This document shows positions 1-53,409 of a stretch of 64,000 nt of DNA, in pieces. This DNA is from Plumapathes pennacea (Eukaryota > Cnidaria > Anthozoa > Antipatharia > Myriopathidae). Position numbers and translations under genes: made by a program. The stretch lies in NCBI GenBank assembly GCA_964036295.1, contig OZ038469.1, positions 992,001 through 1,056,000 on the forward strand, read 5' to 3'. The notes under the pieces are model-generated. The model saw only the letters and a program-made list of their open reading frames with translations, did no database searches and was not told where the DNA came from. How positions within the stretch are numbered: position 1 is the first letter of the stretch; each line of letters opens with the position of its first letter.

Positions 1-44
1 CATCTGGCTGCAGACACTGGGACCGACAGCACATTCGTCGATAT
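1..44 (-). CDS. Gene A exon 40 (partial): calcium-binding EGF
   Basis: After a ttttcag acceptor the exon reads [15 protein letters not shown] and is cut by the window edge. DIDEC is the calcium-binding EGF start. Any transmembrane segment and the stop codon must lie to the left of base 1. Confidence 0.85.
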   Translation of the reverse strand, partial: MSTNVLSVPVSAAR

Positions 45-3000
45 CTGAAAAGCAGTACAGAAGAAGAAAGAAAAAAGAAAGAAAAGGGCATATAAAATGA
101 AAGTTAAAGGGTAGAAGATTCGTAGTTCCCATAAGATTGGCTTGTTGCTTTGCTGTCTCACTAGATTAGCCGATAATGGTTACTTCAGGTACCTAGTACT
201 TATTACAAAAATATTTTGATTTGTTTTTCTTCTATGCACATGAATTGCATCGTACATGCCAAACTTTATTGTTACTATCTATTCAGCTTTTGATGTTACA
301 CGCAATATTGCACTTGACAAATGTCACTATACCTGAGCACCTGTCTCCACGTCCCGTGTAACCTTTCGGGCAGGGTCCACAAGTGTAGCCTTGACTATCC
401 GCCGGCGGAGGTAAGTCTGTACAGTGGACACCAGGAAAACAAGGACTCAAGGCGCATGCATCAAGATCGCTTTCACAGAATCTGCCTTTGTAGCCATCAA
501 TGCAGTTGCAAGGCAAGACTTGGAATCTTTCAGTGGCGTTGGTCAGCTCGATTTCATTTCCGATGCAGATACCACTGTTGTGACAGGCGCACACACGGAC
601 AACAGGACGAAGCAAAGATGCTTCCCCGGCGCTGTCTTTTGCAGCAAAACTAAGATCAATCTGAAATCAAAGAATTAGAGCGGTTTTTGGTTGGCTTTTG
701 AAAGCGTAGAAAACGTACAAAAGTTATTACAGTGAAACAGCTTAAAAACAAAAACAAAAACAAAAACAAAAAACAAAAACACAAAAAAAGCTTTCACTTT
801 CTTAATTAAAACTGCTCTAATAGACAAAACCCGATTTTTTGGGGCAAACTCCACGAATATTTCACTGTCATTTTGATTTATCGTAGATTAAAACAATTGC
901 GACGTATATGCATGTAGGTATTCGGGGGGGGGGGGGGGGGGGGCAAAAGTATTTTGACGGGTTTCGAAGTGTGCAAGTGCCAAAGGCGGAGAATTTGGGG
1001 ATATGTTCCTGTGGAATAAAAACTGGAACTGGAACTGCCTGTGGTACTCTGTCAATGATAATTCAAGGAGAGAGACAAAATACAAGATGGTCGGCTCGGC
1101 AAACCTCTTCGGTTGTCACGTTCCAAACGAGCGTTATGGACGAAGACGTGTTCGTTGACACGGCACCTGCTGGTAGCTTTCCCGTAACTGTAAGGCTCAA
1201 CGTTTCGTTATTTGGGTCCATTGCAGACACAGTCACACGGGCTGTTGTGTTAACTGTCACATTTATTACTGATGGACCGCTGGTGATTCGCGGGGGAAAG
1301 TTTTCTGTTAGAGAGAAAAAAAAAAAAAAAAAAAAAAAAAAACGTAGAAGTTACGCTTCAGCAAAACATGACGAGACATCATTCTGCGAAAGAGTATAAT
1401 TTGTCGTCATTTCCAAGTGGGAAAACTATTATATCGACTTAGGGGTGTAAGAGCGGAACAATTAGCACCAGGGAATGGGGCTCTTCCACAGTAGATTTAC
1501 TTGGAGATATTTGTTAACTTCGAGTATACCTTCGATACCGAATTTTACGGAATAAAGTACCATAAACACCATACATAGAAAAGCATCATAAAACCAATAA
1601 CACCCTTTTACTATATATACACACCACACCAATGAAATTAATAGAAGAATTGCTACAAAATCCTTACTAATTGCGTTTGACTCTTCCACAATCTTAATAG
1701 AAACGGCTTTCGTGCTTTCACCCATTGATACATCTTTAGTAGACGCCGCGTCAAACAAGCAGTTGATGTCGCCATTGCAAGCTGCCTTGGCCTCTTCCTC
1801 CAATGACTGATTGCTAAATTTTAACTCATCAACAAACATTGGCTCAAAACTGTTGTTGGAAAACGTGGCGTGGTCTCCATTATCGTAAGTAAATAAGGTG
1901 GTGTTGGCGTCTACTTGCCCTGAATGGTAAAAATGAACAAAATGTGCAGTTCGCTTAACAAAAGGGGAAACTACAAAATTCAGTAAACAAGACAAGGTAT
2001 GTATAATCTTAGTTTTGACTTACACAGCTGGGCAAACTGATAGTGTATTTCTCTTCCAGTAGAACTTGGCGGTATGACGGTGCCGTTTGGTACACAGAAG
2101 TCATCTTCTGGATCATCATTCCATGTGCCGAGAAGTCCTTTGGTTTGGTTCTTAAATGATTTTGGAGCAGCGAAAATAATCGACAGGGCCTCTTTTACGT
2201 CAGTAATTGTGACAGAAATGCCCGATGGAAAGACAACAGCAATAGAATTGCTTTGTGGTCTAGAGACGGCAACAGAACCATTGAGTCGCATGGATTCATT
2301 GGTAAGAGTTTCATAATTGAACAATTGCCCGTCAATCAGTACCTCCAGACCACCTGAAAAATATTGTCATCAAACTATAAGGGACAACATTCAAGCAAGG
2401 GTAAAACAGCAACAAACAATTAAACTAGCGGATTGATCAAAATCAGGTGCAAAAAATTATTCTAGTATAACATCATGTTTCTTAACTAGCCACTGCCAGG
2501 TAAGGAATGCAAGTTAGAATGGGAACTAGTATGTATTCAGTTGATTAGCACAATAAATAGAGAATTTTCTAGGAATCAATCGAATTCTTTGCCGTTCACC
2601 TGAGGATTTACATCCAAGAATTTGTTGTCTACTTTGATACATACGCTCTAAAACACAAACCCATCCCTAGCCACTTATTCATCAATAAACTGCCCAGATG
2701 GTCAATAAACTGCGATGCACTATGTGGTTTAGATAGCTACAATACTAACCCTCTTTCTTCAAGTTGACTTGGACAGCACTACTTCCGCGCTCCTTTGCTA
2801 CGGCCGCTGAAAACACAGTTGCAGTTTCACCACCCTTAGCAAGTCTAGTTCGAGCTTGTAGCTGAAAAGACCCGTTCCTAGCATCAACCATGACATATTC
2901 ACCAAGGCCATTAAACGTGTAGTTCTGTCCATCTAGGGTCACGAAATGTGGATCACCCCACAACCAGCCTGGAGTTATAGAGAAAAACAGAAGCAAATAA

Positions 3001-6000
3001 GTTACATGTACATATTATATATTCAAAAAGATTGTTTAATTGTGAGCATTGTGCTGCTGATAATACTTATTAAAGTAGTTCTGTACGTTGTGGCCTGTTT
3101 TCTTTTTCAAAATCGTTGTTTAACCCTTGGACGGCCAAATTTTTTCCCGGAAAAAGAAAACAATTCAGACTGAGCTGACATTTAATCAAATATTTCTTTC
3201 CAAGTGAATTATAACTGGGCAAAAGTATACATTTTTGGAAAGCTTACAACCTAAAGAGTACTTCTAATAATGTTTGCAACTCATTATCAGTACTGACAAC
3301 ATGATTATGGTCAGCAAATCTGAGTAAATTACTTCACCAACGGCAAAAATATTATAATCTTGGCTTTCATGGCAGCTCTCAAAACACCAGACAACAAACA
3401 AATTCAAACTAACACCTCTGAAAATATCCACAAACATACAGGGAACAAAATATAAAACAGTTGCGAAGAAAATGTAAACTGTGTCTCGATGAAACTAAAA
3501 TAATCACAAGTTGAGTTGGCAGCCATCTTGAATGCTTCTATCGGCTGGTTCATATTCTTGATCATTCTCACTTTCAACCGAAGCCTACAGAGTAATTGCG
3601 ACCTCATGATAAATCAAAACACGAGTTAGGCGATAATTTGTTTCGAGTTTGCAATCACAAATACGATTTCTCGACAAATATAGAACCAAACCTATCGGAT
3701 TCACTTCGTTGTCGGCCATCAGAAGGTTCTCTTTCGTGTAGCGGGATATTTTGCCGTGTTCTAGCAGTGTAAACAGCCGTCTGTCCTTCGTCTGTCACAT
3801 CGGCAATAAATGCTTCGTCGCAATCAGTGAATTTTCCATCGGAATCGCCTAAGACTAGCCCCACAACTTCCATCTGCAGTGCATCTCGCATCCGCCATGT
3901 TTTTTTTAAAGTCCAAATACACACACAGAGTCCGAAAATCGCGAAAAAATCGACCAAGAACTCGACTTCCTTCGATGAACACGCGTCCGATTGCATGACA
4001 ACAATCCCAGGGGGCATTGCACGCATGAACAGTTACGTGGCAACGAAATAACACAATATTTTGTTGGTCACGCTTCTTGGGGTCGTATACGACCCCATTG
4101 GCCGTTTAAGGGTTAAAAGTGCTACATAACATATCTAAAACAATGTGGACAAATCGATGTATTTGGAATTTATCCATTTTATCTAACAAAGAAAACGAAG
4201 TGTATGTGAATTGAGTTGACTGTGAAAATGTCCAAACAATTGTGCTTGTTTCACGTGCTGATAACGATACGGACGGAAACGTTAAGATTTCATAATGATA
4301 GCAACTTACTCCATTCGAGAGGTTCGTAACGGCTGCAATCGTCCGCCGGGCGTCTTTTGAAATAGAGGTCGCACGAGGACGATTTTACACAGCACTGCTC
4401 ATAGCCAAACATGTCATCTGCTTGATGCTGCTGGCTTGTACTCAGCTTATGATACTTGTGAGTGGAACCTCCTCCTGGATAACCAAGAATCAGCGCTCCC
4501 CAACTGAACCAGTCCCAAGAATAGCAACATTCCTGTCCCCAGCCGTCAACAGAGGGGAAGCTTGAGTACACACACAGCCTCCTATCCCAATACCACCAGT
4601 TTCTCCAGTTGAACGAAAATCTCTCGTCCATTCGGGCTTGTCTGAACGAGCAGGGACAAGGCTCCAGATATGGAGTGTAGTAGCGGGGGTCTGGTTGCTG
4701 CTTGAACCACTTAATGCATTTTTGTTTAGGATTTAGCTGTCCTTTAGAGTTCTCTAATCGGAAAAACCATTTTCCAATGATCTTTGTATTCCCAGGCAAC
4801 TCGTCAATGCTTTCAATATTTACCGTTCCTGACCTAGAACAGCAGGAACAGGAAACGTTTTAAGAATTTTGAGCCTATTTGAATGCATAGATTTATTTTC
4901 ACTTTGTGGCCATATACTCACTCGCGCAATACGCAGTTGTCTGTGCCATAATGTTCTTGACCCAACATATTTTTTGCCAAAATCTAAACACTATCGTGAT
5001 AAATGTATTTTTCCCCACAGCATCCAATACAGCGTGTCTATACATTGTTGAGTTGGGCATTATTAACTTTAAACCTGTTACTGATGCAAAATTTTAACCA
5101 ATGAGGAACATAATCGATTGGGTCAGTTTCGTAACCGTTTGTATCACTATTTGCAATGACATTCGCCGTCACACATATGATCGAAGTATGTGCTATATTA
5201 TCCAACTTCCTTAGTAACATGCAAATATGTAGAACACCAAAGGGATATTAAAAAGTCCTATTATGCATCAAACAAACGATGAGCTCGTCCTTACCTCTGC
5301 GCACTGAATATTTTTTTATTACCAGCGTTCCAGCCAACTTCGGGGAGATTTTCGCTGTTTTGATAGTTCTGGTAAAAATTTCTGAAATCATACAATAAAG
5401 AGGGAAACGTCAAAGGAAAAATTTAGCAAGTGGCTGGTGAGTATTTGTGGTTTGAGGGTGTGTATGCGAGCGCGTGGGCGGTGCGTGTGCGTGGACGTTC
5501 GTGAGAGCCAGTGTTTGGCTACAAAATTGGCCTTTTTCGAACATATTTCCAATAATACACAGATATCATAAAAATTAAACCAAGTATACAAGTAGATGTC
5601 TTGACATTAAAGCCCTGTTTACATGGAAGGAGGGTGACCCTCCGTGAAATAGCATCCTCGCAGCAGGTGTTGCGACCACAAAAACGGCTGCGAGGAGAGT
5701 ATTCTTGGAGGGACACCCTCCTAAAAGGATCACCCTTCTCTACTGAAATTCCTTGTTCCGTTTACATGACAGGTACGGTCATCCTAGGAGGAGGGTTACC
5801 CTATCTCCTTGCTGGGGTAACTCTCCCAGCAGGGACAACTTTTTGCCACGTAAACAGGGCCAAACTTGCTGCCATTCGCACCTCAATGTCGGAGCAGACC
5901 ACTTGATTCCATCTTTTGGGTAGTTGTACATGGCAAAGCTGTAAACACCATCAGTAACAACCACAGCTTGGAACGTGTTACTCTAAAGGGAGAAACAAGA

Positions 6001-13400: not shown

Positions 13401-13433
<33 letters not shown>

Positions 13434-14116: not shown

Positions 14117-14161
<45 letters not shown>

Positions 14162-16749: not shown

Positions 16750-16782
<33 letters not shown>

Positions 16783-19399: not shown

Positions 19400-19462
<63 letters not shown>

Positions 19463-37400: not shown

Positions 37401-38595
37401 TCACCTTGTACTGCCCTACATTCTGTACAAAAGACAAATAAATAATGTCAAATTACTGAAACACATGCACATGTCCCAATTTTTATTGTTTACCAATTGG
37501 AAGTTTTGTAAGATTGGTGGTTAGGTTGGTGTTCTTTTCTTCTCGTATACTGACAATGTCTTATTTCTGAAAACTGCTATAGACCCGGTGAGGTAAACTC
37601 CTGCACAACATAATAAATGACTAGTAACCACTGATAACAATTACTGAGACTCACTTGACAGCACAAAAATTGTACATTTTGCAAATCAGAACCCTCATAC
37701 TCTGAAAAAGCTGGTCTAATTTCCTTATGACATTTAAGCACGTACATGCTACTGGTATGACATCGTAAATATATTTTTGAAGATTATCAATCATTAAACG
37801 TAACTAGGTTCCTTTGTGTACACGTGTTTCTCTGTTATAGTTGGAGTTGACCATGTTCACTGTCAATGATCTACAAAATAACTTACTTTTATTGTTACCA
37901 CAAATAACACTGGCATCTTGACTGTGACTACAGCTATGGTTAGACGCTCCACGGTACTGACAGTTAAGCAAAGACGTTTCGTTGCCATCGCATTCCACCT
38001 GACCAAGCCAGATCGGACCAAGTCCAACACCGAATAAAGCGCTCCTGGGGGCAGCAGTCGCTCTGGGTAAATTCAACATTCGACAGACAACTTGCGCGTC
38101 ATTCAGATCCCAGGAATCATCACATACTGTGCCCCAGACTCCTCCAATCTTAATTTCCACTCTGCCTTGATTTGGAGCTCCTCCACCTGATAAGCGAACT
38201 ATTGGCGCTGTAGATCAAGATTCAAACTCAATTAAAGAAAACAAATCAAGCATACATGCACAGTTCACACCAACATCACATGTAACTGTTGTGCATCTGA
38301 AATATCACAAATGACCAAATATAGGGGACCTCTTACGTCCGTTGGGATGCAGCCAATTTGGAGGACAAAACAACTAAGCGATTTTTATTCTGACAATCTA
38401 AATGCCATCAGTGCATTTTTGAAAACTGTAAGTGTTGTCGCTTCCGGGAGGGGTGACCCTACTTATCATGAAAAAGGAACAAGGAATTTCAATAGAGAAG
38501 GGTGCATCAGGCGAACTTCGACACCAATAATGTTTTTTTCAATCTTAACAGAAGCCGCGATTGCTCAACAAACGTACGCTGCATCCTGACCAAAT

Positions 38596-38631
<36 letters not shown>

Positions 38632-44600: not shown

Positions 44601-47600
44601 CTTTTCCTTTTTTGAAGTGCTAGCCAACCTCAAAGAACACCTTGGTTATAATTTACCCCGCTGGCAGTAACTCTGGGTAAAACGTATTCTTCTTCCTTCG
44701 ATTATAGTAGGGAAGAGTAAAAGAGGTTCTTCTCGCAGGGTAACTTCGACACAGAAATTGCGATACTATTGCGTCATCCTCTTGCAACATACAGTAAATA
44801 CCCTAATAAGCCCCCGTGGGGCTTATTAAAAGAGATGCTAAAACGGCTCTAAGTGCAAGAATCGCAATCGCAATTTTTGCCATCAAACTTGCTAGGACAA
44901 AAGCAAGAACACAACAAAAACCATCTCAAGATACTAACAGAAAACATCATTTTACCTAAATCAACTTTCTTGTTTAGCACACCAAAATTAAGGTGGACCA
45001 AGCTTCCGTGCTCCAGTCGTGTTTGCATGGTAACGTTCCCTTTTGACGACAACTGTAACATCTTATTCCGTGCACTCGCACCGTAGGTTTCACTGTAAGT
45101 GACATTACCAGCTTGATCCACGAGTCTTAAGTATTCACCATACCTACGGAACAGAAAACAATATGACTAGAATACACTTTAAATTTATATCTGTTTGGGG
45201 TATTAATTTGCACGGTGAAGGACGTGGGATTAGACAAGTACACGAACCAAGGGAACTTTTATTTAGCTTGCACGCAGGCTCTCGTATTAAATGCATGAAA
45301 CAAGGAGAAAATATTGGGGGAATGGGGTCGGGGAGGGAACTCTCCTTCCACTTCCTCTCCGCAGCCCGAACGAAGTTATGATTATATTGCTTCCTATGCC
45401 CAGCACCCACCGAGGGCTTCCCGTGCTTTGGCTACTCCAGTGAGAATTTTCCCCATGATTAGAAGCTACTGCATACTGGGTGTTAATGAATTGGCAAAAA
45501 CAAGAAATACGATAATCGCAGATGTCCCCTCGCCCTGTAGGTGGGTTTTCGGGAAGCGGGATTCCTCTCTATTTACCCTTTGGTGATTATCAATTGTTTA
45601 AAAACCATGGTTGTGTGTCGCAACGTTACCAGTCGGCCGGCCCCAAAAAAGAACTTTTGTCGCACGGAGTCTGGTATAGTTCAGACTACGTGTAGTGCAG
45701 AGCGATGCGTTTTCAAATTTCCGTGGAAGCTAAACTCCAAAATTCGCTGAGACAACTTTCCAGATGAACTACAGCAAGCTAAGCAAAGCGAAACTAGAAT
45801 ATTGACTCAATCAGTTTCACTCAGTCAGCGAAGTCGATCTTCAATTTCTTTCTTTTTTCTCTTTTAACAGAAACCGCGATTTCTCCAACCAACTCAACCT
45901 GTGTCAACATGTCATCCCAAATTTAGGTCCTTTTTCCTACTTACCAGCCACGGAATTCTAGCCTGTTGATGATCAAGATCAATTCCACAGTGCTTGAGGA
46001 GCCAACGGTTAAATTACATTCATTCGCGCCCTGGTAATGTTGCACATAAATGAACACGTCTCCGTGTGAATCACCTTGTACTGCCCTACATTCTGTACAA
46101 AAGACAAATAAATAATGTCAAATTACTGAAACACATGCACATGTCCCAATTTTTATTGTTTACCAATTGGAAGTTTTGTTAGATTGGTGGTTAGGTTGGT
46201 GTTCTTTTCTTCTCGTATACTGACAATGTCTTATTTCTGAAAACTGCTATAGACCCGGTGAGGTAAACTCCTGCACAACATAATAAATGACTAGTAACCA
46301 CTGATAACAATTACTGACAGAGACTCACTTGACAGCACAAAAATTGTACATTTTGCAAATCAGAACCCTCATACTCTGAAAAAGGTCTAATTTCCTTATG
46401 ACATTTAAACACGTACATTCTACTGGTATGACATCATAAATATATTTTTGAAAATTATCAATCATTAAACGTAACTAGGTTCCTTTGTGTACACGTGTTT
46501 CTCTGTTATAGTTGGAGTTGACCATGTTCACTGTCAATGATCTACAAAATAACTTACTTTTATTGTTACCACAAATAACACTGGCATCTTGACTGTGACT
46601 ACAGCTATGGTTAGACGCTCCACGGTGCTGACAGTGAAGCAAAGACGTTTCGTTGCCAGCGCATTCTATTTGATCCAGCCAGATCGGACCAAGTCCAACA
46701 CCGAATAAAGCGCTCCTGGGAGCGGCAGTTGCTCTGGGTAAATTCAACATTCGACAGACAACCTGCGCGTCATTCAGATCCCAGGAATCATCACATACTG
46801 TGCCCCAGACTCCTCTAATTTTAATCTCCACTCTGCCTTGATTTGGAGCTCCTCCATCTGATAAGCGAACTAGCGGCGCTGTAGATCAAGATTCAAACTT
46901 AATCCAAGAAAAAACAAATCAAGCATACATGCACAGTTCACACCAACATCACATGTAACTGTTGTGCATCTGAAATATCACAAATGACCAAATATAGGGG
47001 ACCTCTCATGTCCGTAGGAATACAGCCTATTTGGAGAACAGATCTATGTATTTTTTACCTGGCAATCTAAATCCCATCGGTGCATACTCATGTCGCAAAC
47101 GCAGTCGAAAGAGAAATGCCAAACTTTATTTTTTAACACTTTTTGTCTGAATCTTGAACATTTACAGATGGTAATGAAATAAGTTTAGTTCACCATTTAG
47201 TTGTCTTTCACCACTGACAGTAACGTTCCCTAAACCTGAATCCTTGGACTATAATGAACGACGTTTGGTCAGAGCTCTTAGGCAATAAACATGCTACTGA
47301 CTTATTTTTTCCAGATTGTATAGTGAATAACCTTACCTGTTATCGCGTCAAACATGCATACAACACCAACATCATAGCTGTGATCACACCAGTTAACATT
47401 CCCCAGTCCATTATGTCTGCAGTCCATCAGTGAGTTTTCGTTTCCTGAACACTGCACTCCATCAAGCCAGATTGGTCCAACGCCCTCACCAAATAAATTT
47501 CTTGAGGCAGCGATCGCACGCGAAAAATTCAACATTCGGCAAACAACTTGTGCATCATTTATGTCAAAACTGTTGCCACAAACCGTGCCCCAGACTCCTT

Positions 47601-50600
47601 CTACGTTGACTTCCACACGGCCTTGGTTTTTTTGTGAACCTCCATCAACCAGACGGACAACTGGAGCTGAAGGAAAACATTTAAATATCCATTTAGCAAC
47701 TTTTTAAAATAGGGATACAATACTGTTAGCACATATCTTTTTAAGAGATGAAAATACGAATGCGACTGAAGCCCCACTGAAACTTTTACTGAATCAAAAC
47801 CACAAATCGCATATCGACAGTTATTTTGCTACACAGGCTTTGATTTTCAATGCACTTAAAACAAACTGCCTATGAGAATACCGCAAAATTATATTTTTCA
47901 GTTACAGTAACATTATAAGAAGTTCTTCACAACAACTTCTTGATTGGTGCTTGCATATTACTGCCCACTTAATTGAAATGTCACATGAAATATTTGAATT
48001 TCTGCAGCTTCAAAGTGCCTGTCAGAAATATTTTTTAAAACATTAATGTTTTAAGCGCCAAACAAATATCAAATTGTTATTTTCTGGCACCTAAAACATA
48101 AAATCAGGAGTAATATCACGTGGGCGCTTTGAAATAGCCCGGGAAACTGGCACTAATCTCAGGGCAATGTTTCCAATATATTTTGACGATCATCACTTTT
48201 ACAAACTGGCGATCGACTTTTTCCGTTTAAAGTGGCCAGGTGGCACATGCACTAATAAGGTAACTTCTGACTCTGAGTAGATTCTCTAGCAAATACAAGG
48301 GGCAATTAAGGTGTGGAAGCAATATAGAGGTAAGAAAAAGAAAACTGTGTAGTTAGGAATTAAATTGATCACTGTTGTCCTGTTTTATGCACCTTCCCCC
48401 CATCAGCTGCCAAAAATAATGATGTAGGATGATGTAAGCAGGCTATCATACATAGCATACTGTAAATACTTCTATCAGGTGTAAGGTTAGGGGAACATGT
48501 CTAAGATTTGGCTTACCTGAATCTTGAGATCTAGCTGAGGATCCAGCTGAGGTCAGCAGCACTCCTGAAAATATAATTTTATTGAAGTAAAGCTGACATA
48601 TTAAGTCAAACATAATCTATATACCACAGTACCAACAGAGGAAGTGCATGCAGTCCCAAGCATTGCATTGCGTGCTCTTGTAGATCATAGATGACTAAAT
48701 TCCCCATCACCATGGAAAACTGCAGTCTCTGTCAGCAAAAGCACACAGCTGGAGGCAGACAGATCGATAGCTATCAATGTCAGTAATGCTTTACACATCA
48801 GCCTTGAAAGAAAAAATCCAAAATGCCTTGTAGTTTACAATCATTCCATACTTTGAAGTGTTAATGACTGTGTAGAAATTGACAGAGTTTACTTAAGCTG
48901 TTCTTTCCCAACATTGGTTTGATTTAATCTTCTCATAAAGCTTTCCAACAACATATTAACTGAAATACATTGATATAATTAAAAATGTTACTGGACAGTA
49001 GGATGGTTGTGGTTGTCTGGGATAGAGTAGTCTCCAGGAAGACTGTTGCAGTCGGTCAACAACAGTCTTCCTGGAGACTTGTAGATAGCTATAGCCCGGA
49101 CCATCACAACCAACAATTACTGTTCACACTAGCTCCTGGGTTCAAACCATTTGCCAAATATTATTGTAGGATCATATTACTTTCTTTTTCCCTCATGCAA
49201 AGGAACATACCTATCCCAGACCAAAAAACAAAATCTATACCTATTTCAGACCAAAAAGGCAAAATCGATACCCTATTTCAGACTAAAAATGCTTGAAAAC
49301 AATACCCTTTGGGGCGGCACATACCATTATGGCTTATATATGGGAGTACCCCCCCCCTCCCCCCCCCCCCCCCCCCCCGGGGTTTACGCGAGTCAAGTTT
49401 ATACTCACACAGCTACACGTGGCTTTTTTAGGAGTTCAGTGGAGTCCGAGGGAAATCGACAGGCTCTCGATCGAACAAAGTCGCATTCCGCTTCATATTT
49501 GAGCTTTCTACGGAGCGAAAACTCAACACAAACAGAGCAAACTCAAAGCCCTCCTCAACCACCACCACTGATCAGCCATTTTGAACAGTACCCAGGATTC
49601 ACTGCAGCTTCTAACTCCGTTGAAGCCTGGGAATGACTAAATTTTCCCTTGAGACTTGAACCCAGGATTTGAATCCTCGGAGACCCAGGGGCAGATCGTG
49701 GGGCGGCGGTGAAAAGAACGGCGGGCAAAAAGCGGCGGAGGGGGAGGGGGAGGTGGGAGAAAAAAAGAGGAAGAAAAGAGCCCCTGGGAACACAGTTCAG
49801 ACCAGTATTGAAGGCGTGACACAGGCGCGCCGCCGATTGGGCGAAAAAATTTATCAATTGTAATTTTTTGCCCAATCAGCGATTGTCGTCAAATGCCGCC
49901 TGTCAAAAGTCCATTAAGGGATTAAGCGCGTTTCGTTCGGCAAGATAGAAGAAGCTATTAAATTTTGTGTGATTATTTCCAAATGTCAAGGAGTTGAAAG
50001 CCGAGCAGAAATTGATCGTGGAGAATGTCGTGAAAGGAAGAGATGTGTTTGGGGAGCTGCCAACGGGATTTGGCAAGAGTTTGGCCTTTCAAGTTTTGCC
50101 AGTCGTTGCGAAAGCGATGAATGCTGCGGGCCAGAAATTCCCCGCTTCTCCGATGGTCGTTGTTCTGTCTCCGCTGTCGTCGGTCATAACGTCACTAACA
50201 CTTGTCAATCAAAAGGATGGCCGGATATCAAATGGCAACTCACAACATGGCTAATCTTTACTTCGAAAGCGCTCTAAACGATGTTTTGTTTGACCTCGCT
50301 GAAACCGGATTTGTGTGGTCTTTACGAAGAGAGCAACAAGCTATCAGAAAGAAATCTTCGTGTGCTCTCGTCGTTTGTCCTCTCAAAAGTATAGTGCAAG
50401 ACCAGATTTCAGAGGCGGTGGCGATAGGAACGGATTGACCGCAGTCTGCGCGCTTCCGACTTGCATCGTTTGATTTTTTGGCGTGCCAATGTTTACAGCT
50501 GATCTTCGGCTTAGAAACTCGTTTCAAACAAGTTGTGTAAGTTACGAAACCTTCGGCCACAAAGGTTGCACACGCGTTATTAACAGCTTGGCAAAGATCA

Positions 50601-53409
50601 GCGAGAATAACTACCCGACAATCTCTTCTGTTTAAAAGCTTGAAAAGGTTTCCGAAGAAAGATAGCTTTGTTTCCCGGGTTCAAAAATATTCCCAAATCT
50701 GACTCACGGTCTACAAATTTTGCTAAGCATTTCGGTTTTCCGACATTCCGATATTGAATCTAAAAAAAACGCGTTGTTCTGATTGGTTTATTTTGACAGG
50801 TGAAATGTTAACGTGTGAGTGACTAATTAATCAGTGGCAATTTCCGGCAATTCTACTTTTTTGTTGAAACTTGAATTTGGAATCACGAAAATAAAGGAAA
50901 AACTAATTCTTAGCGCTCTTCTTTCTTGGGAAAGTTAAAATACCCCAATTATTTTCTACTTCGTTGTATACGGTCTGCAACGTAAATATTCTCGACCTTT
51001 TCTGAATAAAAATCTCGATCTTTTCTGAGATTTGTTCCGTCCAGCAGGTTTGGGGAAATGTCAGACATTTTCTCACGTTTGTCTGTCGGTTCGTGTCTCG
51101 GAACGAGCGGTTCTCATGCGGTTCCCACGTGACTTTTCGTATAAGACAACTTCGGGCCACTTACTCGCGGGTTTTGGCGCGACGACACGTGCACGGCGAG
51201 ATGTCTTTTGTAAAATTTAAACGAAAGGGCAAACTGGTTAAGGTAAAAATATCAGACTTAACAGTTAAAAGCATTTCAATGATCTTTAAGTATCACCGCG
51301 CTCCTTCGATTTCATCTTCCAGGTAAACTCCTTTCATCGCATTCAACTTAAAGATCATTGAAATGCTTTTAACTCAGTGTTAAGTCTGATATTTTTACCT
51401 TCACCAGTTTGCCCTTTCGTTTAAATTTTACAAAAGACATCTTGCCGTGCACGTGTCGTCGCGCCAAAACCCGGCGAGCAAGTGGCGCGAAGTTGTTTTT
51501 TTGTAAAGTCACGTGGGAACAGCATGAGAAAGGCTTGTTCCGAGACACGAACCGACAGACAAAACGTGAGAAAATGTCTGACATTTCCCCAAACTACTGG
51601 CCGGAACAAATCTCAGAAAGGATCGAGATTTTTATTCAGAAAGGTCGAGAATATTTACGTTGCAGACCGAATACAACGACGTAGAAAATAATTGGGGTAT
51701 TTCAACTTTCCCGAGAAAGAATAGCGCTAAGAATTGGTTTTTCCTTTATTTTCGTGATTCCAAATTCGAGTTTCAACAAAAAAGTAGAATTGCCGGAAAT
51801 TGCCACTGATTCTAATTCAAGGCGTTCGTCAAAATAACAGACCTTGGCGGCAGGCAGTCATATCACTTAACACTCACAGACGAATCAATTTAAAAAAATG
51901 CAGTAAGACAAAGTAGTACAGTCTTCCATAATAGTTTTAACTAACAAGAGGATTGAAACACATTATTTCATGCTCTATTCTTCTAACCCCAATAAAATGA
52001 CCGAGACTAAAACTCAGCTTCACAGCAGTCACGCCAGCAATTGCGCAACCAACTAAACTGTCACGAGGAGATAATCCCAAACTTCGAAAGTAATTTTTGC
52101 TTGGTACTAAGATCTTTAGTCTAGCAATGCTTGACCCCTGAGTGGCTAGAGAGATCGACAAATTATAAATTAGTTCATGTTCAACTTCGTTCAATTTATA
52201 TTTTTTCTATACATCAAGGGACATGTTTGTTATTTCAAATAATGAATTCAACATAAGAAATCACGACAACAATCCACCATTTGTTATTACAGAAAATCTC
52301 TTCTCGTATTACAGGTCAATCGCTCCTCCATCTTCTTTTTCCACTTGAAAGGTAAAAGCTCGTTTAAATTGCGAAGGGCACATGATTCGAATAGAAAATT
52401 GGCATCGGTTATCAATTAGAAATCAAATCAGGCAGTTCTTTTACTATTTCATAAATGCGCCAGCACCAAGACCTGCCAAAGACCCAAAGAAAATTTAATC
52501 CGTCAGGAATGTGTTTTGCACACTTGGAATGCTTTTTTCTCAGACACGCTTCTCAAACCTTGACTTTCTGTTTTAAAATGTAATCCATTCTGCGCTAGTT
52601 AGTTCTAGTGATCACTGTACAACTAATTTTCAAGGACATGGAATTTCACATAACTTACCAACGAGTCAATTTTAAAAAAGGGAAAGACAAGTTATGCTTT
52701 CCGTAAACAATACGAGAGAAGATTGGACCAGACAATTTTCATTTTAACCTGACAAAAGGACTTCAAACCCCTTTGAATGTTGGTACAAGTCGCAAAACTC
52801 AACTGGGCGCCTTGAACATATTCCCGACACACGGACCGTTTGGCTCTTGTTTAATGGTGGCATGGGTTTTATGCAGGTTTGCATATATATACTGACGTGA
52901 CCTGAATCTGTAATGATCTCCAAGACTCTAAAGATATATATATATATATATGTATGTACTGCTTCTAATGAACACAATTTTTACTAGCGCAAATCTGTAG
53001 TTGTTATCTAACTTACTGTATGGGTGCTTTGTTACAACATGAAATAAAGGTTTTGAGCATGCAGATCTTATAGCATACTCAATAACTAAATTTAGCTAAA
53101 AAATAAATGAAAGCAAATATGTGTTCCACACAGAGCTTCGCAAACTAATGTCGGTGACCGGTGATATACAAGCGAAGAAGGAACGCGCAGGAAATTCTTC
53201 GCTTGTGCTTGGTAGACTTCTGTCTTCCTGCGCTGCTTTCTGCGATCTTTATTTAATTAATCACTGTACAACAACTCAAAGTGCTGTAAATAGACTTTCA
53301 AGATCTAATATTTAAAGAAGCAGCTGAACTTACCAACACTGGCAATCACAATCAAAAGTAAAAAGGCCCTCAAAGGCTTGGCGGAGACGGATACCCACGT
53401 ATTCAGCAT
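1..53409 (-). CDS. Gene A: giant SRCR/CUB/FN3/NIDO/AMOP/VWD/EGF mosaic protein (3' end outside window)
   Basis: Forty exons on the minus strand, listed one by one below, join in frame and give at least 3113 residues. Start is the ATG at 53407-53409, which opens a hydrophobic signal peptide. Order: signal peptide, SRCR x2, CUB-like, FN3, SRCR x2, CUB-like, FN3, SRCR x2, CUB-like, FN3, FN3, CUB, FN3, FN3, CUB, FN3, FN3, CUB, FN3, NIDO, AMOP, VWD, post-VWD region, EGF, calcium-binding EGF. The C-terminal NIDO-AMOP-VWD-EGF set is the membrane-proximal set of mucin-4-like proteins (family knowledge), so a secreted or membrane-tethered extracellular protein is expected. A mucin-like coral skeletal-matrix protein with related domains is known to me from memory, but orthology is not shown here. 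Exon boundaries come from reading frame, GT/AG signals and phase agreement, not from transcripts. Confidence 0.9.
333..660 (-). CDS. Gene A exon 39: EGF-like domains
   Basis: Begins [20 protein letters not shown], then [40 protein letters not shown] and [16 protein letters not shown]. Two EGF-type cysteine patterns. It ends in phase 1 and joins the next exon to make DIDEC. Confidence 0.92.
1105..1304 (-). CDS. Gene A exon 38: Ig/cadherin-like segment before EGF
   Basis: Reads [20 protein letters not shown], then [20 protein letters not shown] and [12 protein letters not shown]. The NFPP.I and A.DPN.....L motifs resemble the segment between VWD and EGF in mucin-4-like proteins. The donor gtttgc is weak, so the 3' boundary is less certain. 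Confidence 0.75.
1668..1919 (-). CDS. Gene A exon 37: post-VWD region
   Basis: Reads [20 protein letters not shown], then [20 protein letters not shown] and [20 protein letters not shown]. The SLF.Y..G, F.P and C....C.FD..T.D motifs follow VWD in mucin-4-like proteins. The frame stays open past the donor into a hydrophobic stretch, which I treat as intron. Confidence 0.88.
2024..2353 (-). CDS. Gene A exon 36: VWD domain, exon b
   Basis: Reads [19 protein letters not shown], then [20 protein letters not shown] and [30 protein letters not shown] is the conserved end of VWD in the mucin-4 and tectorin group. Confidence 0.95.
2750..2968 (-). CDS. Gene A exon 35: VWD domain, exon a
   Basis: Reads [20 protein letters not shown], then [33 protein letters not shown] is the VWD signature. 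It leaves in phase 1. Confidence 0.95.
2969..4309 (-). other. Intron between AMOP and VWD
   Basis: Mostly occupied by the piggyBac-like element. The rest is AT-rich and anonymous. Confidence 0.6.
3124..4112. mobile_element. piggyBac-like element with TTAA flanks
   Basis: Flanked by TTAA at 3120-3123 and 4113-4116. Ends CCCTTGGACGGCCAA and TTGGCCGTTTAAGGG are inverted repeats. A perfect palindrome GGGGTCGTATACGACCCC lies near the right end. An open frame on the minus strand (3655-4026) with [20 protein letters not shown] may be an N-terminal transposase remnant; no catalytic region is present. Confidence 0.78.
4310..4833 (-). CDS. Gene A exon 34: AMOP domain
   Basis: Begins [20 protein letters not shown] and contains [28 protein letters not shown] and [20 protein letters not shown], then [20 protein letters not shown]. 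The CPC...QA..D.RF motif and paired cysteines are characteristic of AMOP, an extracellular adhesion-associated domain of mucin-4 and SUSD2-type proteins. Confidence 0.93.
5295..5381 (-). CDS. Gene A exon 33: NIDO domain, exon d
   Basis: Reads [20 protein letters not shown] then NKKIFSAQR. The VG.NAG motif closes the NIDO domain. It joins exons 32 and 34 in phase 2. Confidence 0.85.
5611..5861. mobile_element. MITE beside NIDO exon c
   Basis: Starts GCCCTGTTTACATGG and ends CCACGTAAACAGGGC; interior rich in GGAGGGT/ACCCTCC inverted units. Ends about 20 bp from the splice donor of the exon at 5882-5982. Confidence 0.7.
5882..5982 (-). CDS. Gene A exon 32: NIDO domain, exon c
   Basis: Reads [20 protein letters not shown], then GIKWSAPTL, the NTFQAV..TDG..SFA core of NIDO. 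A MITE-like element starts about 20 bp beyond its donor. Confidence 0.9.
5983..6860 (-). other. Intron inside the NIDO domain
   Basis: Contains the MITE at 6238-6408; otherwise anonymous AT-rich sequence. Confidence 0.5.
6238..6408. mobile_element. Mariner-like MITE (TA target site)
   Basis: CAATCCTGGCCAAAAGTATG at the left and GACTTTTGGCCAGGATTG at the right are inverted, flanked by TA. Confidence 0.75.
6861..7199 (-). CDS. Gene A exon 31: NIDO domain, exon b
   Basis: Reads [20 protein letters not shown], then [20 protein letters not shown] and [20 protein letters not shown]. The FLAPYW..D and ..VTW motifs are diagnostic of NIDO. Confidence 0.93.
7392..7537 (-). CDS. Gene A exon 30: NIDO region, exon a
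   Basis: Reads [20 protein letters not shown], then [26 protein letters not shown] is the usual lead-in to NIDO domains. It leaves in phase 0, marking the change from the phase-1 modular region to the conserved NIDO block. Confidence 0.88.
7846..8109 (-). CDS. Gene A exon 29: FN3 domain 9
   Basis: Reads [20 protein letters not shown], then [20 protein letters not shown] and [18 protein letters not shown]. Last FN3 before the NIDO block; phase 1 both sides. Confidence 0.9.
8278..8465 (-). CDS. Gene A exon 28: CUB domain 6, second half
   Basis: Reads [20 protein letters not shown], then [26 protein letters not shown] and FCG confirm CUB. Two adjacent AG acceptors (CAGCAG) would include or omit one Ser codon; the larger exon is given. 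Confidence 0.92.
8795..8966 (-). CDS. Gene A exon 27: CUB domain 6, first half
   Basis: Reads [20 protein letters not shown], then [20 protein letters not shown] and [23 protein letters not shown] is a textbook CUB start. Ends in phase 2. Confidence 0.92.
8967..9567 (-). other. Intron between FN3 8 and CUB 6
   Basis: Contains the SINE at 9128-9397 and short direct repeats of AGTCAGTATCTA near 9392-9425 that could be target-site related. Confidence 0.5.
9128..9397 (-). mobile_element. Second tRNA-derived SINE family
   Basis: A box TGGCCGAGCGG (9379-9389) and B box GGTTCAATCCC (9312-9322), spaced by a tRNA-like segment, then a non-tRNA body ending TTAAATAAACGGTATTTATT. Different body from the 19841 family. 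Confidence 0.75.
9568..9855 (-). CDS. Gene A exon 26: FN3 domain 8
   Basis: Reads [20 protein letters not shown], then [20 protein letters not shown] and [18 protein letters not shown]. One of the most canonical FN3 copies here. Phase 1 both sides. Confidence 0.92.
9856..10398 (-). other. Intron between FN3 7 and FN3 8
   Basis: Contains the MITE at 9874-9999. The rest is anonymous. Confidence 0.5.
9874..9999. mobile_element. Short MITE
   Basis: Ends AGGGCCTTTTTCAAACGTCG and CGACGCTTGAAACAGGCCT, with further internal complementarity (GAACTTCACGTGCG / CGCATGTGAAGTTC). Confidence 0.7.
10399..10719 (-). CDS. Gene A exon 25: FN3 domain 7
   Basis: Reads [20 protein letters not shown], then [20 protein letters not shown] and [17 protein letters not shown], with all core FN3 positions present. 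Phase 1 both sides. Confidence 0.9.
11069..11259 (-). CDS. Gene A exon 24: CUB domain 5, second half
   Basis: Reads [20 protein letters not shown], then [20 protein letters not shown] and [17 protein letters not shown] is the usual CUB end. Separated from the first half by a 3.1-kb intron that holds two tandem Helitrons. Confidence 0.85.
11467..11660. mobile_element. MITE with ~38-bp inverted ends
   Basis: AACATTTTCAGTGCAACTTG at the left and CAAGTTGCACTGAAAATGTT at the right are exact complements; complementarity extends through TCGCGCAA.AATGTTGC. Confidence 0.75.
11870..12300. repeat. Dispersed repeat block
   Basis: GCTCGTGGCGAAGC.GACGAGC followed by AGGATTGGAAA also occurs, reverse-complemented, at 33915-33955 and 42875-42915. 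A possible transposon relic; no coding potential supported. Confidence 0.55.
12690..13480 (-). mobile_element. Non-autonomous Helitron 1
   Basis: On the minus strand it starts TCTCTATCTCTATATAATAA and ends with a CCCCGTATTTTACGGGG hairpin followed by TCCCGCTAG, then T. TC start, 3' hairpin and CTAG end are Helitron hallmarks. It contains a CA microsatellite (13405-13431) and no Rep/helicase gene. Confidence 0.8.
13481..14202 (-). mobile_element. Non-autonomous Helitron 2, head-to-tail with copy 1
   Basis: Same ends as copy 1; on the minus strand preceded by A. Its CTAG end touches the TC start of copy 1 with no bases between. It contains a CA microsatellite at 14120-14159. Confidence 0.8.
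14362..14530 (-). CDS. Gene A exon 23: CUB domain 5, first half
   Basis: Reads [20 protein letters not shown], then [19 protein letters not shown]. The SPGYP.Y motif is a strong CUB signature. It ends in phase 2 at gtacgtat. Confidence 0.85.
14531..15203 (-). other. Intron between FN3 6 and CUB 5
   Basis: Contains a short repeat-like block (14580-14700) of GCGGGAGTTAATTT / AACTCCCGC units arranged as inverted pairs. The rest is anonymous. Confidence 0.5.
15204..15491 (-). CDS. Gene A exon 22: FN3 domain 6
   Basis: Reads [20 protein letters not shown], then [20 protein letters not shown] and [19 protein letters not shown]. Phase 1 both sides; donor gtatgtat. Confidence 0.88.
15492..16963 (-). 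other. Intron between FN3 5 and FN3 6
   Basis: Contains a two-copy tandem repeat of ~48 bp (GAAGGGCAAATTCGATATCA at 16524 and 16572) and an A-run at 16751-16780. No exon supported. Confidence 0.55.
16964..17266 (-). CDS. Gene A exon 21: FN3 domain 5
   Basis: Reads [20 protein letters not shown], then [20 protein letters not shown] and [18 protein letters not shown]. Phase 1 both sides; acceptor gtacag, donor gtaagtac. Confidence 0.88.
17267..18176 (-). other. Intron between CUB 4 and FN3 5
   Basis: Contains a MITE-like element at 17453-17710 and otherwise anonymous sequence. Confidence 0.5.
17453..17710. mobile_element. MITE-like element
   Basis: Ends GGCCTGGCAAAACGAGGATA and TGTCCTTGTTTTGCCAGGTC are near-perfect inverted repeats about 258 bp apart. 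Confidence 0.6.
18177..18352 (-). CDS. Gene A exon 20: CUB domain 4, second half
   Basis: Reads [20 protein letters not shown], then [20 protein letters not shown] and [12 protein letters not shown]. The YVE...LCG motif completes the CUB fold. Phase 2 in, phase 1 out. Confidence 0.85.
19396..19462. repeat. ATT microsatellite
   Basis: Uninterrupted trinucleotide repeat in the CUB 4 intron. Confidence 0.95.
19690..19840. mobile_element. Palindromic MITE-like block
   Basis: Left half contains CGAGTGCAATTTGGAATAAA and right half TTTATTCCAAAATTGCACG, giving arms of about 65 bp with small mismatches around a GCGCCGCGCG centre. Confidence 0.6.
19841..20137 (-). mobile_element. Near full-length tRNA-derived SINE
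   Basis: The 5' head has a tRNA-like A box (TGGCCGAGTGG, about 20117-20127) and B box (GGTTCAAGTCC, 20073-20083), with an anticodon-arm-like CCGGACTTGAAATCCGG. A unique body and an A/T-rich AAATAAAT-type tail follow. The body is shared with 30915-31095. Confidence 0.82.
20478..20664 (-). CDS. Gene A exon 19: CUB domain 4, first half
   Basis: Reads [20 protein letters not shown], then [20 protein letters not shown] and YGEC. It has the C...SG.F..P.....Y....C.W pattern of CUB domains. Ends in phase 2. Confidence 0.85.
21237..22211. mobile_element. ~975-bp element with perfect 30-bp inverted repeats
   Basis: The 30-bp repeats at 21237-21266 and 22182-22211 are exact complements, beginning TTTATTATATGACTGTGACG. 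No transposase is readable inside, so it appears non-autonomous. Confidence 0.75.
22217..22350. repeat. GC-rich hairpin with ~45-bp arms
   Basis: ATTCGATGGTT.AGCGCGTAAT and ATTACGCGCT.AACCATCGAA flank a CCCCGCGCCGGGG centre. It adjoins the right end of the previous element and may be part of a composite transposon. Confidence 0.65.
22544..22828 (-). CDS. Gene A exon 18: FN3 domain 4
   Basis: Reads [20 protein letters not shown], then [20 protein letters not shown] and [20 protein letters not shown]. The GYKI and T.KG.G features are typical FN3 strands. Phase 1 on both sides. Confidence 0.88.
23120..23383. mobile_element. Pogo/Tigger-like MITE (TA target site)
   Basis: Ends CAGTAGAACCCCGCTAACTC and its near complement AGTTAGCGGGGTTCTACTG, flanked by TA on both sides. 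Interior contains repeated GAGTTAGCCGATAG and GAAAGGGAAATCCAAGGGAA units. Confidence 0.8.
24588..24722. mobile_element. MITE copy with AGATGCCTGTTG ends
   Basis: Starts AGATGCCTGTTGCCTCTGTT and ends AACAGGCATCTC; about 135 bp. Same family as 56538-56693. Lies in the intron between FN3 exons 17 and 18. Confidence 0.65.
24962..25255 (-). CDS. Gene A exon 17: FN3 domain 3
   Basis: Reads [20 protein letters not shown], then [20 protein letters not shown]. It keeps the older GW motif where the two sister copies have EW. Same length and phases as FN3 domains 1 and 2. Confidence 0.85.
25554..25741 (-). CDS. Gene A exon 16: CUB-like domain 3, second half
   Basis: Reads [19 protein letters not shown], then [20 protein letters not shown]. 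Phase 2 in, phase 1 out. Only about 300 bp of intron separates it from the next FN3 exon, against 4.7-6.3 kb in the other two units. Confidence 0.8.
26684..26831 (-). CDS. Gene A exon 15: CUB-like domain 3, first half
   Basis: 148 bp with the same phases as exons 5 and 10, but more diverged ([18 protein letters not shown]). Its acceptor is tatag rather than tacag. Confidence 0.78.
27794..28114 (-). CDS. Gene A exon 14: SRCR domain 6
   Basis: Reads [20 protein letters not shown], then [20 protein letters not shown] and [14 protein letters not shown]. The donor ACAA/gtaagtt is intact. DNY replaces the DDS/DDN seen in its relatives. Confidence 0.92.
28908..29216 (-). CDS. Gene A exon 13: SRCR domain 5 with lost canonical donor
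   Basis: A complete SRCR domain ([20 protein letters not shown] to DASVICG). The sister exon ends AATGCAA/gtaagtt. Here two bases are missing (AATGCAATAAGTT), so no GT is present at that position. A GT 12 bases inside the exon (TGTG/gtaaca) would restore phase 1 and drop only four residues; the coordinates assume that donor. If it is not used, the frame runs into a stop about six codons later, or the exon is skipped. Confidence 0.6.
29676..29969 (-). CDS. Gene A exon 12: FN3 domain 2
   Basis: 294 bp, near-identical to 39974-40267. It reads [20 protein letters not shown] and ends [11 protein letters not shown] before a gtgagttt donor. Confidence 0.85.
30915..31095 (+). mobile_element. 5'-truncated tRNA-derived SINE
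   Basis: Starts inside the family body at CCTCGGCCACACTATGTAAA and ends in an ATTT-repeat tail. The body matches the complement of 19841-20040. The paralogous position near 41206-41216 lacks it. Confidence 0.8.
32461..33481. mobile_element. Inverted-repeat DNA element (non-autonomous)
   Basis: A perfect 22-bp inverted repeat at 32461-32482 and 33460-33481 starts TAATCATAAATATTACAATT. The paralogous intron lacks the sequence, so it is an insertion. No transposase is recognisable. Confidence 0.75.
33482..33637. mobile_element. Palindromic element beside the inverted-repeat insertion
   Basis: About 37-bp near-perfect inverted arms at 33511-33547 and 33566-33602, with complementary GGTAAGAGGAC / GTCCTATTACC ends. 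The whole 32465-33637 insertion is flanked by ATTAAT, present once at 42587-42592 in the empty paralogue. Confidence 0.65.
36287..36474 (-). CDS. Gene A exon 11: CUB-like domain 2, second half
   Basis: 188 bp reading [19 protein letters not shown] and ending NKKVDS before a gtaaaatg donor. Phase 2 in, phase 1 out. Confidence 0.8.
37275..37422 (-). CDS. Gene A exon 10: CUB-like domain 2, first half
   Basis: 148 bp, same length and phases as 45945-46092 and 26684-26831. It carries the [20 protein letters not shown] start and a phase-2 donor. Confidence 0.8.
37887..38207 (-). CDS. Gene A exon 9: SRCR domain 4
   Basis: Reads [20 protein letters not shown], then [20 protein letters not shown] and [16 protein letters not shown]. 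The six cysteines are kept. Phase-1 acceptor and donor are intact. Confidence 0.92.
38599..38631. repeat. TG microsatellite (expanded relative to paralogue)
   Basis: A longer TG run than the matching site near 28340-28354 in the other unit. About 150 bp of extra sequence precedes it in this copy. Confidence 0.85.
39193..39513 (-). CDS. Gene A exon 8: SRCR domain 3
   Basis: Reads [20 protein letters not shown], then [20 protein letters not shown] and [17 protein letters not shown]. The donor GCAA/gtaagtt is intact. Its sister exon at 28908-29216 has lost this donor. Confidence 0.92.
39974..40267 (-). CDS. Gene A exon 7: FN3 domain 1
   Basis: Reads [19 protein letters not shown], then [20 protein letters not shown] and [18 protein letters not shown], a fibronectin type III fold with its conserved Trp and the Y.V.F.A pattern. 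Phase 1 on both sides. Near-identical to 29676-29969. Confidence 0.85.
40268..44955 (-). other. Large intron between CUB-like 1 and FN3 1
   Basis: 4.7 kb of non-coding sequence paralogous to 29970-36286. It includes a T-run near 40946, the solo LTR, a poly-C tract near 44338 and a T-run near 44565. It ends with TAATAAGCCCCC/GGGGCTTATTA, a short hairpin also present at 35826-35851. Confidence 0.65.
43201..43581 (+). mobile_element. Solo LTR with 5-bp target duplication
   Basis: 381 bp starting TGTTATAGCC and ending GGCCGCTGCA, so TG...CA ends, flanked by CGCAC on both sides (43196-43200 and 43582-43586). The paralogous site at 34625-34629 has a single CGCAC and no insert. A TATATAAT box and an AATAAA signal lie inside. 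Strand is inferred from those signals. No internal retroelement genes remain. Confidence 0.88.
44956..45143 (-). CDS. Gene A exon 6: CUB-like domain 1, second half
   Basis: Continues [19 protein letters not shown], then [20 protein letters not shown]. It enters in phase 2 and leaves in phase 1. Almost identical to 36287-36474 and closely similar to 25554-25741. Confidence 0.8.
45945..46092 (-). CDS. Gene A exon 5: CUB-like domain 1, first half
   Basis: Reads [20 protein letters not shown], then [18 protein letters not shown] and LEFRGW. It enters in phase 1 and ends in phase 2, with the intron splitting the domain as in the other CUB domains of this gene. It has two cysteines rather than the usual four, so it is called CUB-like. 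Confidence 0.8.
46558..46878 (-). CDS. Gene A exon 4: SRCR domain 2
   Basis: Reads [20 protein letters not shown], then [20 protein letters not shown] and a C-terminal ASVICGNNK. It is almost identical to the SRCR exon at 37887-38207. Acceptor and phase-1 donor (AAAA/gtaagtt) are intact. SRCR domains bind protein or polyanionic ligands in scavenger receptors; the ligand here is unknown. Confidence 0.92.
46879..47336 (-). other. Intron between SRCR 1 and SRCR 2
   Basis: The part nearest 46879 is a diverged copy of the sequence that follows the SRCR exons at 28115, 29217, 38208 and 39514. The rest is unique. No other feature was seen. Confidence 0.55.
47337..47666 (-). CDS. Gene A exon 3: SRCR domain 1 (divergent copy)
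   Basis: Reads [18 protein letters not shown], then [20 protein letters not shown] and a DCRHNGLG...WCDH...VVC tail, the full SRCR pattern. The six cysteines fit a group A spacing. It differs from the other five SRCR exons (VNVEG, NLFGEG), so it probably predates the tandem expansion. Phase 1 on both sides. Confidence 0.9.
47667..48516 (-). other. Intron 2 of gene A
   Basis: About 850 bp of AT-rich sequence. No coding, repeat or regulatory feature could be supported. Confidence 0.6.
48517..48564 (-). CDS. Gene A exon 2: end of signal peptide and short linker
   Basis: A 48-bp exon with acceptor tattttcag and donor gtaagcc. With the last base of exon 1 it reads [16 protein letters not shown], which completes the hydrophobic signal region and supplies a small-residue cleavage zone. 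It enters and leaves in phase 1. Confidence 0.65.
49029..49079. repeat. 20-bp perfect hairpin inside a short MITE-like palindrome
   Basis: AGTCTCCAGGAAGACTGTTG and its exact complement lie 11 bases apart. Partly complementary GGTTGT/ACAACC sequences extend the palindrome to about 49005-49114. Confidence 0.7.
49205..49305. repeat. Three-copy ~30-bp tandem repeat of the same family
   Basis: Units begin CCTATTTCAGACCAAAAA, then CAAAATCGATA. It is the complement of the family at 56215-56400 and is followed by a poly-C tract at about 49351-49378. Confidence 0.7.
49980..50438 (+). pseudogene. RecQ-family helicase-like fragments
   Basis: One frame reads [20 protein letters not shown] then [16 protein letters not shown] and [11 protein letters not shown], a Walker A loop (GFGKS) with flanking RecQ-type motifs. 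A shifted frame then reads [25 protein letters not shown] and [19 protein letters not shown], which looks like a second N-terminal fragment missing its Walker A. No full helicase follows. Probably a degenerate or transposon-derived copy inside intron 1 of gene A. Confidence 0.7.
50830..51810. mobile_element. Large foldback element with ~460-bp arms
   Basis: Left arm 50830-51290 and right arm 51347-51810 are near-identical inverted copies with a 56-bp spacer. Both arms carry the same short frame starting [20 protein letters not shown]. No transposase is visible, so it looks non-autonomous. It lies in intron 1 of gene A. Confidence 0.8.
53334..53409 (-). CDS. Gene A exon 1: signal peptide
   Basis: Encodes [20 protein letters not shown] followed by VIASV, a basic N-terminus then a hydrophobic core typical of a signal peptide. 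The exon ends in phase 1 at a gtaagttc donor and joins exon 2 in frame. A closely related exon lies upstream at 55136-55211. Confidence 0.8.

Follow-up and report, generated by a model that had tools for sequence, protein, structure and literature searches.

The minus strand of the 64,000-nucleotide window of Plumapathes pennacea (C8:992001-1056000) is best explained, with a probability of roughly 0.6, as carrying one gene for a membrane receptor in which an SRCR array is placed on a mucin-4-type core. The product of this gene, here called copy A, would consist of a signal peptide, three SRCR-SRCR-CUB-like-FN3 units, three FN3-CUB-FN3 units, the mucin-4-type core, EGF domains, a SEA-like stalk, a helix and a short tail. 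The earlier note had proposed a giant mosaic surface protein with an SRCR array and a mucin-4-like C-terminus; this proposal is supported at the level of sequence, and the protein is now predicted to possess one transmembrane helix.

Gene model

Coordinates are window positions, with negative values lying beyond base 1; the genome searched comprises 290 Mb in 24 contigs. The window and its flanks were analyzed with a self-trained exon-chain gene finder, after which the model was refined with the tandem copy and missing exons were added by eye; exons were retained on the evidence of both copies, of domains or of direct reading of the sequence. A gene-finder setting with a weaker exon penalty was discarded, as it gave 645 exons on one strand.

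The curated model of copy A comprises 48 minus-strand exons from 53409 down to -3570, ending 3.57 kb beyond base 1, with a coding length of 10,554 bases (3517 residues). All 47 introns are GT-AG, phases match at every junction, and the frame contains no internal stop and a single terminal stop. The forty phase-consistent exons counted previously are borne out, as the window includes 39 complete exons and part of one more; the accompanying length of at least 3113 residues is too high for the window, which encodes about 3089 (3074 from complete exons, with 44 nt more). Hydropathy exceeds the threshold used at the signal peptide and at one helix only, across the whole chain of both tandem copies. 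In copy A this helix spans approximately residues 3458-3477 and precedes a 40-residue tail; the product is predicted to be a complete type I membrane protein.

Domain architecture

All exons below lie on the minus strand. Exon 1 (53334-53409; 25 protein letters) supplies the start codon together with the signal peptide; it has a homologous exon in copy B and contains the sole strong N-terminal hydrophobic stretch. Exon 2 (48517-48564), present in both the gene finder output and the curated model, encodes a linker. Intron 1 also contains a fold-back element of approximately 980 bp (50829-51811), with inverted arms of 172, 96, 59, 59, 33 and 33 nt at 85-100% complementarity.

Unit 1 consists of SRCR 1 (47337-47666) and SRCR 2 (46558-46878), which together score 205.6 bits in Pfam (PF00530), a CUB-like domain on two exons (45945-46092 and 44956-45143; phases 1-2-1) drawn from the exon model and of putative CUB identity, and an FN3 domain (39974-40267) at 22.1 bits, under the cut-off of 25. 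Unit 2 repeats this order with SRCR 3 (39193-39513), SRCR 4 (37887-38207), a CUB-like domain (37275-37422 and 36287-36474) and FN3 (29676-29969), as does unit 3 with SRCR 5 (28908-29216), SRCR 6 (27794-28114), a CUB-like domain (26684-26831 and 25554-25741) and FN3 (24962-25255). In units 2 and 3 the SRCR domains were placed by a genome SRCR profile search, the CUB-like domains by the exon model and CUB HMM comparison, and the FN3 domains by the curated model and a genome search with the unit module. All six SRCR exons in the window are over the SRCR cut-off in the genome profile search. The Pfam search covered residues 1-468 and 1313-3517 of 3517 in ten pieces; units 2 and 3 (469-1312), left out of this input, match unit 1 at 95% and 85% identity across the second SRCR, the CUB-like domain and FN3.

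Three FN3-CUB-FN3 units follow. The first (22544-22828, 20478-20664, 18177-18352, 16964-17266) scores 47.0 bits for fn3 and 27.0 for CUB; the second (15204-15491, 14362-14530, 11069-11259, 10399-10719) scores 60.1 and 32.4; the third (9568-9855, 8795-8966, 8278-8465, 7846-8109) scores 80.6 and 70.6, so that all three CUB domains are over the Pfam cut-off of 21.4. The core opens with NIDO (7392-7537, 6861-7127, 5882-5982, 5295-5381; 108 bits), continues with AMOP on a single exon (4310-4833) at 23.5 bits (E 6.4e-5), 1.5 under the cut-off of 25, and VWD (2750-2968, 2024-2353; 82.8 bits) with WGDPH at its start, and includes a mucin-4-type C8-3 domain (C8-3_MUC4, PF23263; 1668-1919) at 48.5 bits against a cut-off of 25. 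Next come an Ig-like stretch with no Pfam assignment and a first EGF-like stretch (1105-1304 and 333-660; gene finder and Pfam). The following EGF exon of the curated model, 44 to -78, lies in the window at positions 1-44; beyond the window, to -3570, are four further EGF exons, the SEA-like region, the transmembrane helix and the 40-residue tail. EGF_CA scores 121.4 bits. Copy A shows the order NIDO-AMOP-VWD, with EGF domains and a single transmembrane helix after it, by which mucin-4-type membrane proteins are recognized; the GDPH motif of VWD falls at residue 2636 in copy A and 2108 in copy B, and is also found in two other translated loci.

The domain order read earlier from the letters stands for SRCR, the FN3-CUB-FN3 units, NIDO, VWD and EGF, all over their cut-offs; AMOP and the FN3 of the SRCR units fall just under theirs, and the CUB of the SRCR units is unrecognized. 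This last domain has no Pfam match (unit 1 being the one sent) and no PDB match, and hhalign comparison to CUB gave probabilities of 0.5% and 0.1%, the latter against 20 CUBs of the same genome, compared with 99.7% for the CUBs of the three FN3-CUB-FN3 units of copy A taken together. A CUB HMM scores five CUB-like copies at 1.8-7.6 bits against at most 0.3 in the 14 listed of 15 SRCR/FN3 controls, a difference which alone is not significant; the two-exon 1-2-1 phase layout is common to the CUB-like domain and the true CUBs of copy A. Based on this ranking and the shared layout, the module is likeliest a worn CUB, and is treated here as putative. Copy A has no Pfam match to ZP (residues 1-468 and 1313-3517) and no mucin domain, with a maximum of 34% Ser/Thr/Pro in any 100 residues. 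The SEA-like region, which occupies the position of the SEA domain described in anemone mucin4-like proteins, has no Pfam match to SEA in copy A or in the paralogue, and these two regions share 24% identity.

One gene or two adjacent genes

The alternative that bears most directly on this anatomy is that two adjacent genes meet in the 2133-bp gap 24961-22829, one encoding a secreted SRCR/CUB-like/FN3 protein and the other an FN3-CUB-FN3-NIDO-AMOP-VWD membrane protein; this is considered improbable. Nearly all extracellular module boundaries are phase 1, so adjacent genes would also look phase-consistent, and for this reason phase agreement was discarded as proof of a single gene; the joining of exons by the gene finder was likewise discarded, since the finder also fused upstream genes and the tandem copy. 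The gap contains AATAAA three times in copy A and four times in copy B, a weak indication in AT-rich DNA, and sea-anemone mucin4-like proteins in print carry CUB and FN3, with SRCR unmentioned in the available text (PMC9080433).

As a test for a hidden gene start, introns were scanned for first exons with a signal peptide, a scan that recovers the real first exon in both copies. The introns of copy A (46,426 bp) yield eight candidates with six distinct starts, compared with 14 by chance on the opposite strand; none of the eight resembles any of the five in copy B, and the first intron of copy B yields none. Some of the copy A candidates, two in 14362-11259 and one in 4310-2968, follow the SRCR part; these are unconserved yet might be genuine, and they count against a single gene. 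No candidate in any phase is present in the gap that follows the SRCR part (24961-22829 in copy A and its counterpart in copy B), where the second part of a split locus would need another means of secretory entry, nor in the intron that separates the last FN3 from NIDO in either copy; this intron is 308 bp in length. A genome search with the CUB-like/FN3 module of the SRCR units also argues against a separate SRCR gene, as 15 of its 17 matches lie in the two tandem copies and the other two are weak FN3 matches. The absence of a conserved signal-peptide exon from the introns, together with the 308-bp FN3-NIDO intron, favors one gene: the FN3-CUB-FN3 units and NIDO are almost certainly parts of the same gene, to which the SRCR part most likely belongs as well, and from the exon evidence the single-gene anatomy of copy A is considered probable.

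Tandem copy and evolution of the repeats

Copy B is a tandem duplicate of the whole gene (-13622 to -58812; 42 exons, 2990 residues) and is open throughout. Its order is SRCR-SRCR-CUB-like-FN3, SRCR-CUB-like-FN3, three FN3-CUB-FN3 units and the core, giving three SRCR exons compared with six in copy A. Within copy A, units 1 and 2 share five DNA blocks that, introns included, total approximately 8 kb and are 95-98% identical. Upstream of copy A on the same strand (57537-62842) lies a gene with myotubularin-type phosphatase and PH exons, presumably SBF/MTMR13-like, the tail of which was co-duplicated and lies between the copies at approximately -7.4 kb to -11.3 kb. Tandem repeats are found at 57314-57552 (75 bp, beside the PH exon at 57537), 62530-62662 (41 bp) and 23164-23371 (91 bp).

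Duplicated blocks up to 97-98% alike raise the possibility of an artefact, either a decayed gene or false tandem copies produced by misassembly. The usual donor is also gone in one SRCR exon: at SRCR 5 (28880-28908) a single-base difference from SRCR 3 abolishes the homologous GT, which is likely replaced by an in-frame donor predicted 12 nt upstream. However, open frames and splice sites are complete in both copies, and the A-B blocks range from 79 to 97% identity with differing insertions, unlike a false duplication of one locus; an artefact is thus very improbable.

Divergence between the copies increases from the core outward. The core (NIDO to end) is 97.2% identical with a dS of 0.033 and a ratio of 0.38 (26 synonymous and 37 nonsynonymous changes in 1260 codons); FN3-CUB-FN3 is 90.1% identical with a dS of 0.065 and a ratio of 0.83; the SRCR units are 83-87% identical with a dS of 0.10-0.17 and ratios of 0.44-0.67. 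The lesser conservation of the ectodomain, the difference in SRCR exon number and the five near-identical blocks of units 1 and 2, which suggest an array being remade, are what would be expected of a receptor for self/non-self or partner recognition in which variation of the repeat array is maintained among loci and individuals. Synonymous divergence runs parallel along the chain, however, and the ratios above 1 (1.24 for the EGFs and 1.17 for FN3-CUB-FN3 unit 2) are based on just 1.5 and 9 synonymous changes. Because dS climbs too, conversion of the core or comparison of non-orthologous units explains the gradient as well as selection does; positive selection on the ectodomain was discarded on the grounds of few changes and the shift in synonymous divergence, and a self/non-self role is doubtful.

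Other NIDO and mucin-4-like loci

At least 28 NIDO matches group into at least 15 loci in the genome, nine of the 15 on C8, the chromosome of the window; this concentration suggests local spread of the family. Among these loci only copies A and B have a listed SRCR (at least 94 places) within 100 kb, the next being 647 kb off. An AMOP match at C8:14741170 was discarded as a close relative, with no tblastn match of the copy A protein at E 1e-3 in the surrounding 50 kb. A locus at C7:17.75 Mb differs in architecture from copy A; the region C7:17726001-17776000 holds a NIDO-AMOP-VWD gene with sushi-like repeats, which we take to be SUSD2/mesh-like. Separately, the 17.7-kb contig C24 reads as mitochondrial DNA, with what we take to be nad4, nad6, atp8, atp6 and nad5 tightly packed in a row; no tRNA was found in 3 kb. 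This fits an anthozoan, but the gene order is presumably unlike that of scleractinians.

Copy A was also compared with a serine-rich mucin-4-like gene at approximately C8:2.648-2.663 Mb, in the region C8:2624001-2674000, about 1.65 Mb from copy A and known from a raw gene prediction. From NIDO to the helix all 16 exons compared are equal in phase to those of copy A; five are identical in length and the others are within 36 nt, as seen in lengths of 101, 87, 518 and 219 compared with 101, 87, 524 and 219 in copy A. In front of this shared set the serine-rich gene has a 687-residue exon of 71% serine (76% S/T/P) with SASSSSSSSV-type repeats, whereas copy A has SRCR/CUB/FN3 there. Judged from these equal phases and similar lengths, the core of copy A is of mucin-4 type, and the difference between the two genes is the front part.

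Known relatives

The predicted product shares the order NIDO-AMOP-VWD(GDPH)-C8-3-EGF-transmembrane with the vertebrate transmembrane mucin MUC4; unlike MUC4, it is without a Ser/Thr/Pro-rich mucin domain and has an SRCR/CUB-like/FN3 array and a SEA-like stalk. Mucin4-like proteins with N-terminal CUB, FN3 and ZP, some also with SEA, are described from sea anemones (Actinia tenebrosa and others) and O. faveolata (PMC9080433). The sea-anemone proteins, compared by description only, are transmembrane with CUB and FN3 before NIDO-AMOP-VWD, as in copy A; SRCR has no occurrence in the available text of that paper, and the ZP of some was not found in copy A (PMC9080433). Acropora mucin4-like proteins, found in the skeletal proteome, also have a NIDO-AMOP-VWD-EGF core with extra N-terminal modules, these being TSP1 repeats rather than the SRCR/CUB/FN3 of copy A (PMC4890752). 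A sushi-domain-2-like protein of red-coral skeleton is classed under mucins (PMC7853314).

On the scavenger-receptor side, DMBT1/SALSA and cnidarian DMBT-like proteins have SRCR arrays with CUB, as in copy A, the cnidarian ones also with fibronectin domains (PMC5119243, PMC3100851). Copy A differs from DMBT1/SALSA in having no ZP match, an unrecognized CUB beside SRCR, and a mucin-4 core with a transmembrane anchor; by reading, its SRCR domains have six cysteines compared with eight in DMBT1/SALSA. An SRCR figure panel for a ctenophore includes VWD and CUB among its domains, with NIDO unmentioned in the available text (PMC11797021), and an anthozoan study, which ranks an SRCR+CUB gene first in significance among those raised in the Exaiptasia pedal disc, lists a Mucin-4 gene and DMBT1 genes separately in its available parts (PMC6626399).

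The novelty claimed for an ectodomain ahead of the mucin-4 set is narrowed by these reports, since CUB/FN3/ZP and TSP1 fronts are in print. What holds is the combination of SRCR with a NIDO-AMOP-VWD core, of which no description was found in the open-license literature, where figures are not searchable; the literature pairing SRCR with NIDO amounted to one sponge paper, available in part, which names NIDO once, under 'other domains' in a figure legend. Automatic annotation may well already include the same architecture. A tentative new reading, possible though short of favored, is that of an expandable SRCR array on a cleavable mucin-4 core, a two-subunit receptor with a recognition array in place of the mucin domain that evolves by gain and loss of units; in this genome it would be represented by only one tandem pair, the arrays of which differ in length.

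Proposed function

The proposed mechanism draws on characterized relatives of the core. In SUSD2 the D-P cleavage in GDPH was demonstrated by sequencing and is needed for surface delivery, and cleavage of MUC4 is reported in the same paper (PMC6696261). By analogy, the chain of copy A may be cleaved at GD|PH on its way through the secretory pathway, and the SRCR/CUB/FN3/NIDO/AMOP part would then be a large subunit carried by a membrane-bound VWD-EGF subunit. The mucin-4 core would serve as stalk and anchor, the array replacing a mucin. The SRCR array, many-valent by repetition, may bind particles or microbial surfaces at the epithelial surface in a cation-dependent manner; a role in particle or microbe binding is proposed tentatively, at slightly less than even odds.

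A cation site mediates the binding of SRCR domains to many ligands (PMC7043408). An acidic DD pair after GTVC is found in four of the six SRCR domains of copy A and one of the three of copy B, its equation with the published SALSA sites being our own mapping. In DMBT1 bacteria are bound by an 11-mer, and the deviating SRCR 14 (GRVEI) is probably non-binding according to the authors (PMC3100851). At the corresponding position (GRVEV...W) the 11-mer is matched by SRCR 1 only, in which the acidic pair is lost (GN), and the other five of six read GRVEI; this counts against a simple copy of the bacterial binding of DMBT1.

A role in adhesion or in the extracellular matrix (as epithelial glue or egg coat, or in mesoglea or skeletal matrix), with the SRCR array making glycan or matrix contacts, is unlikely but has more in its favor than the other alternatives. 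NIDO, CUB, FN3, VWD and EGF all belong to the modules of matrix and adhesion proteins, and fibronectin, CUB, NIDO and EGF domains suit such a role as well as they suit microbe binding; the mucin4-like protein of the Acropora skeletal proteome (PMC4890752) and the SRCR+CUB gene raised in the Exaiptasia pedal disc (PMC6626399) point the same way. However, the copy A product is predicted to be membrane-anchored, and the skeletal mucin4-like proteins are described with TSP1 rather than SRCR (PMC4890752). Both points are compatible with adhesion, but the skeletal matrix suggested in the earlier note gains no support from this analysis.

Significance

Should the membrane receptor with an SRCR array prove to be encoded by a single transcript, the mucin-4 core would be a general-purpose, probably cleavable membrane platform, with the same exon set joined to a serine-rich mucin-like domain in one gene of the genome and to a scavenger-receptor array in a second. 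This would permit a direct test of the function of the NIDO-AMOP-VWD core apart from mucin. Scavenger receptors are suspected in cnidarian-alga recognition, with fucoidan used for blocking (PMC5119243), and copy A would provide a defined candidate for such a receptor.
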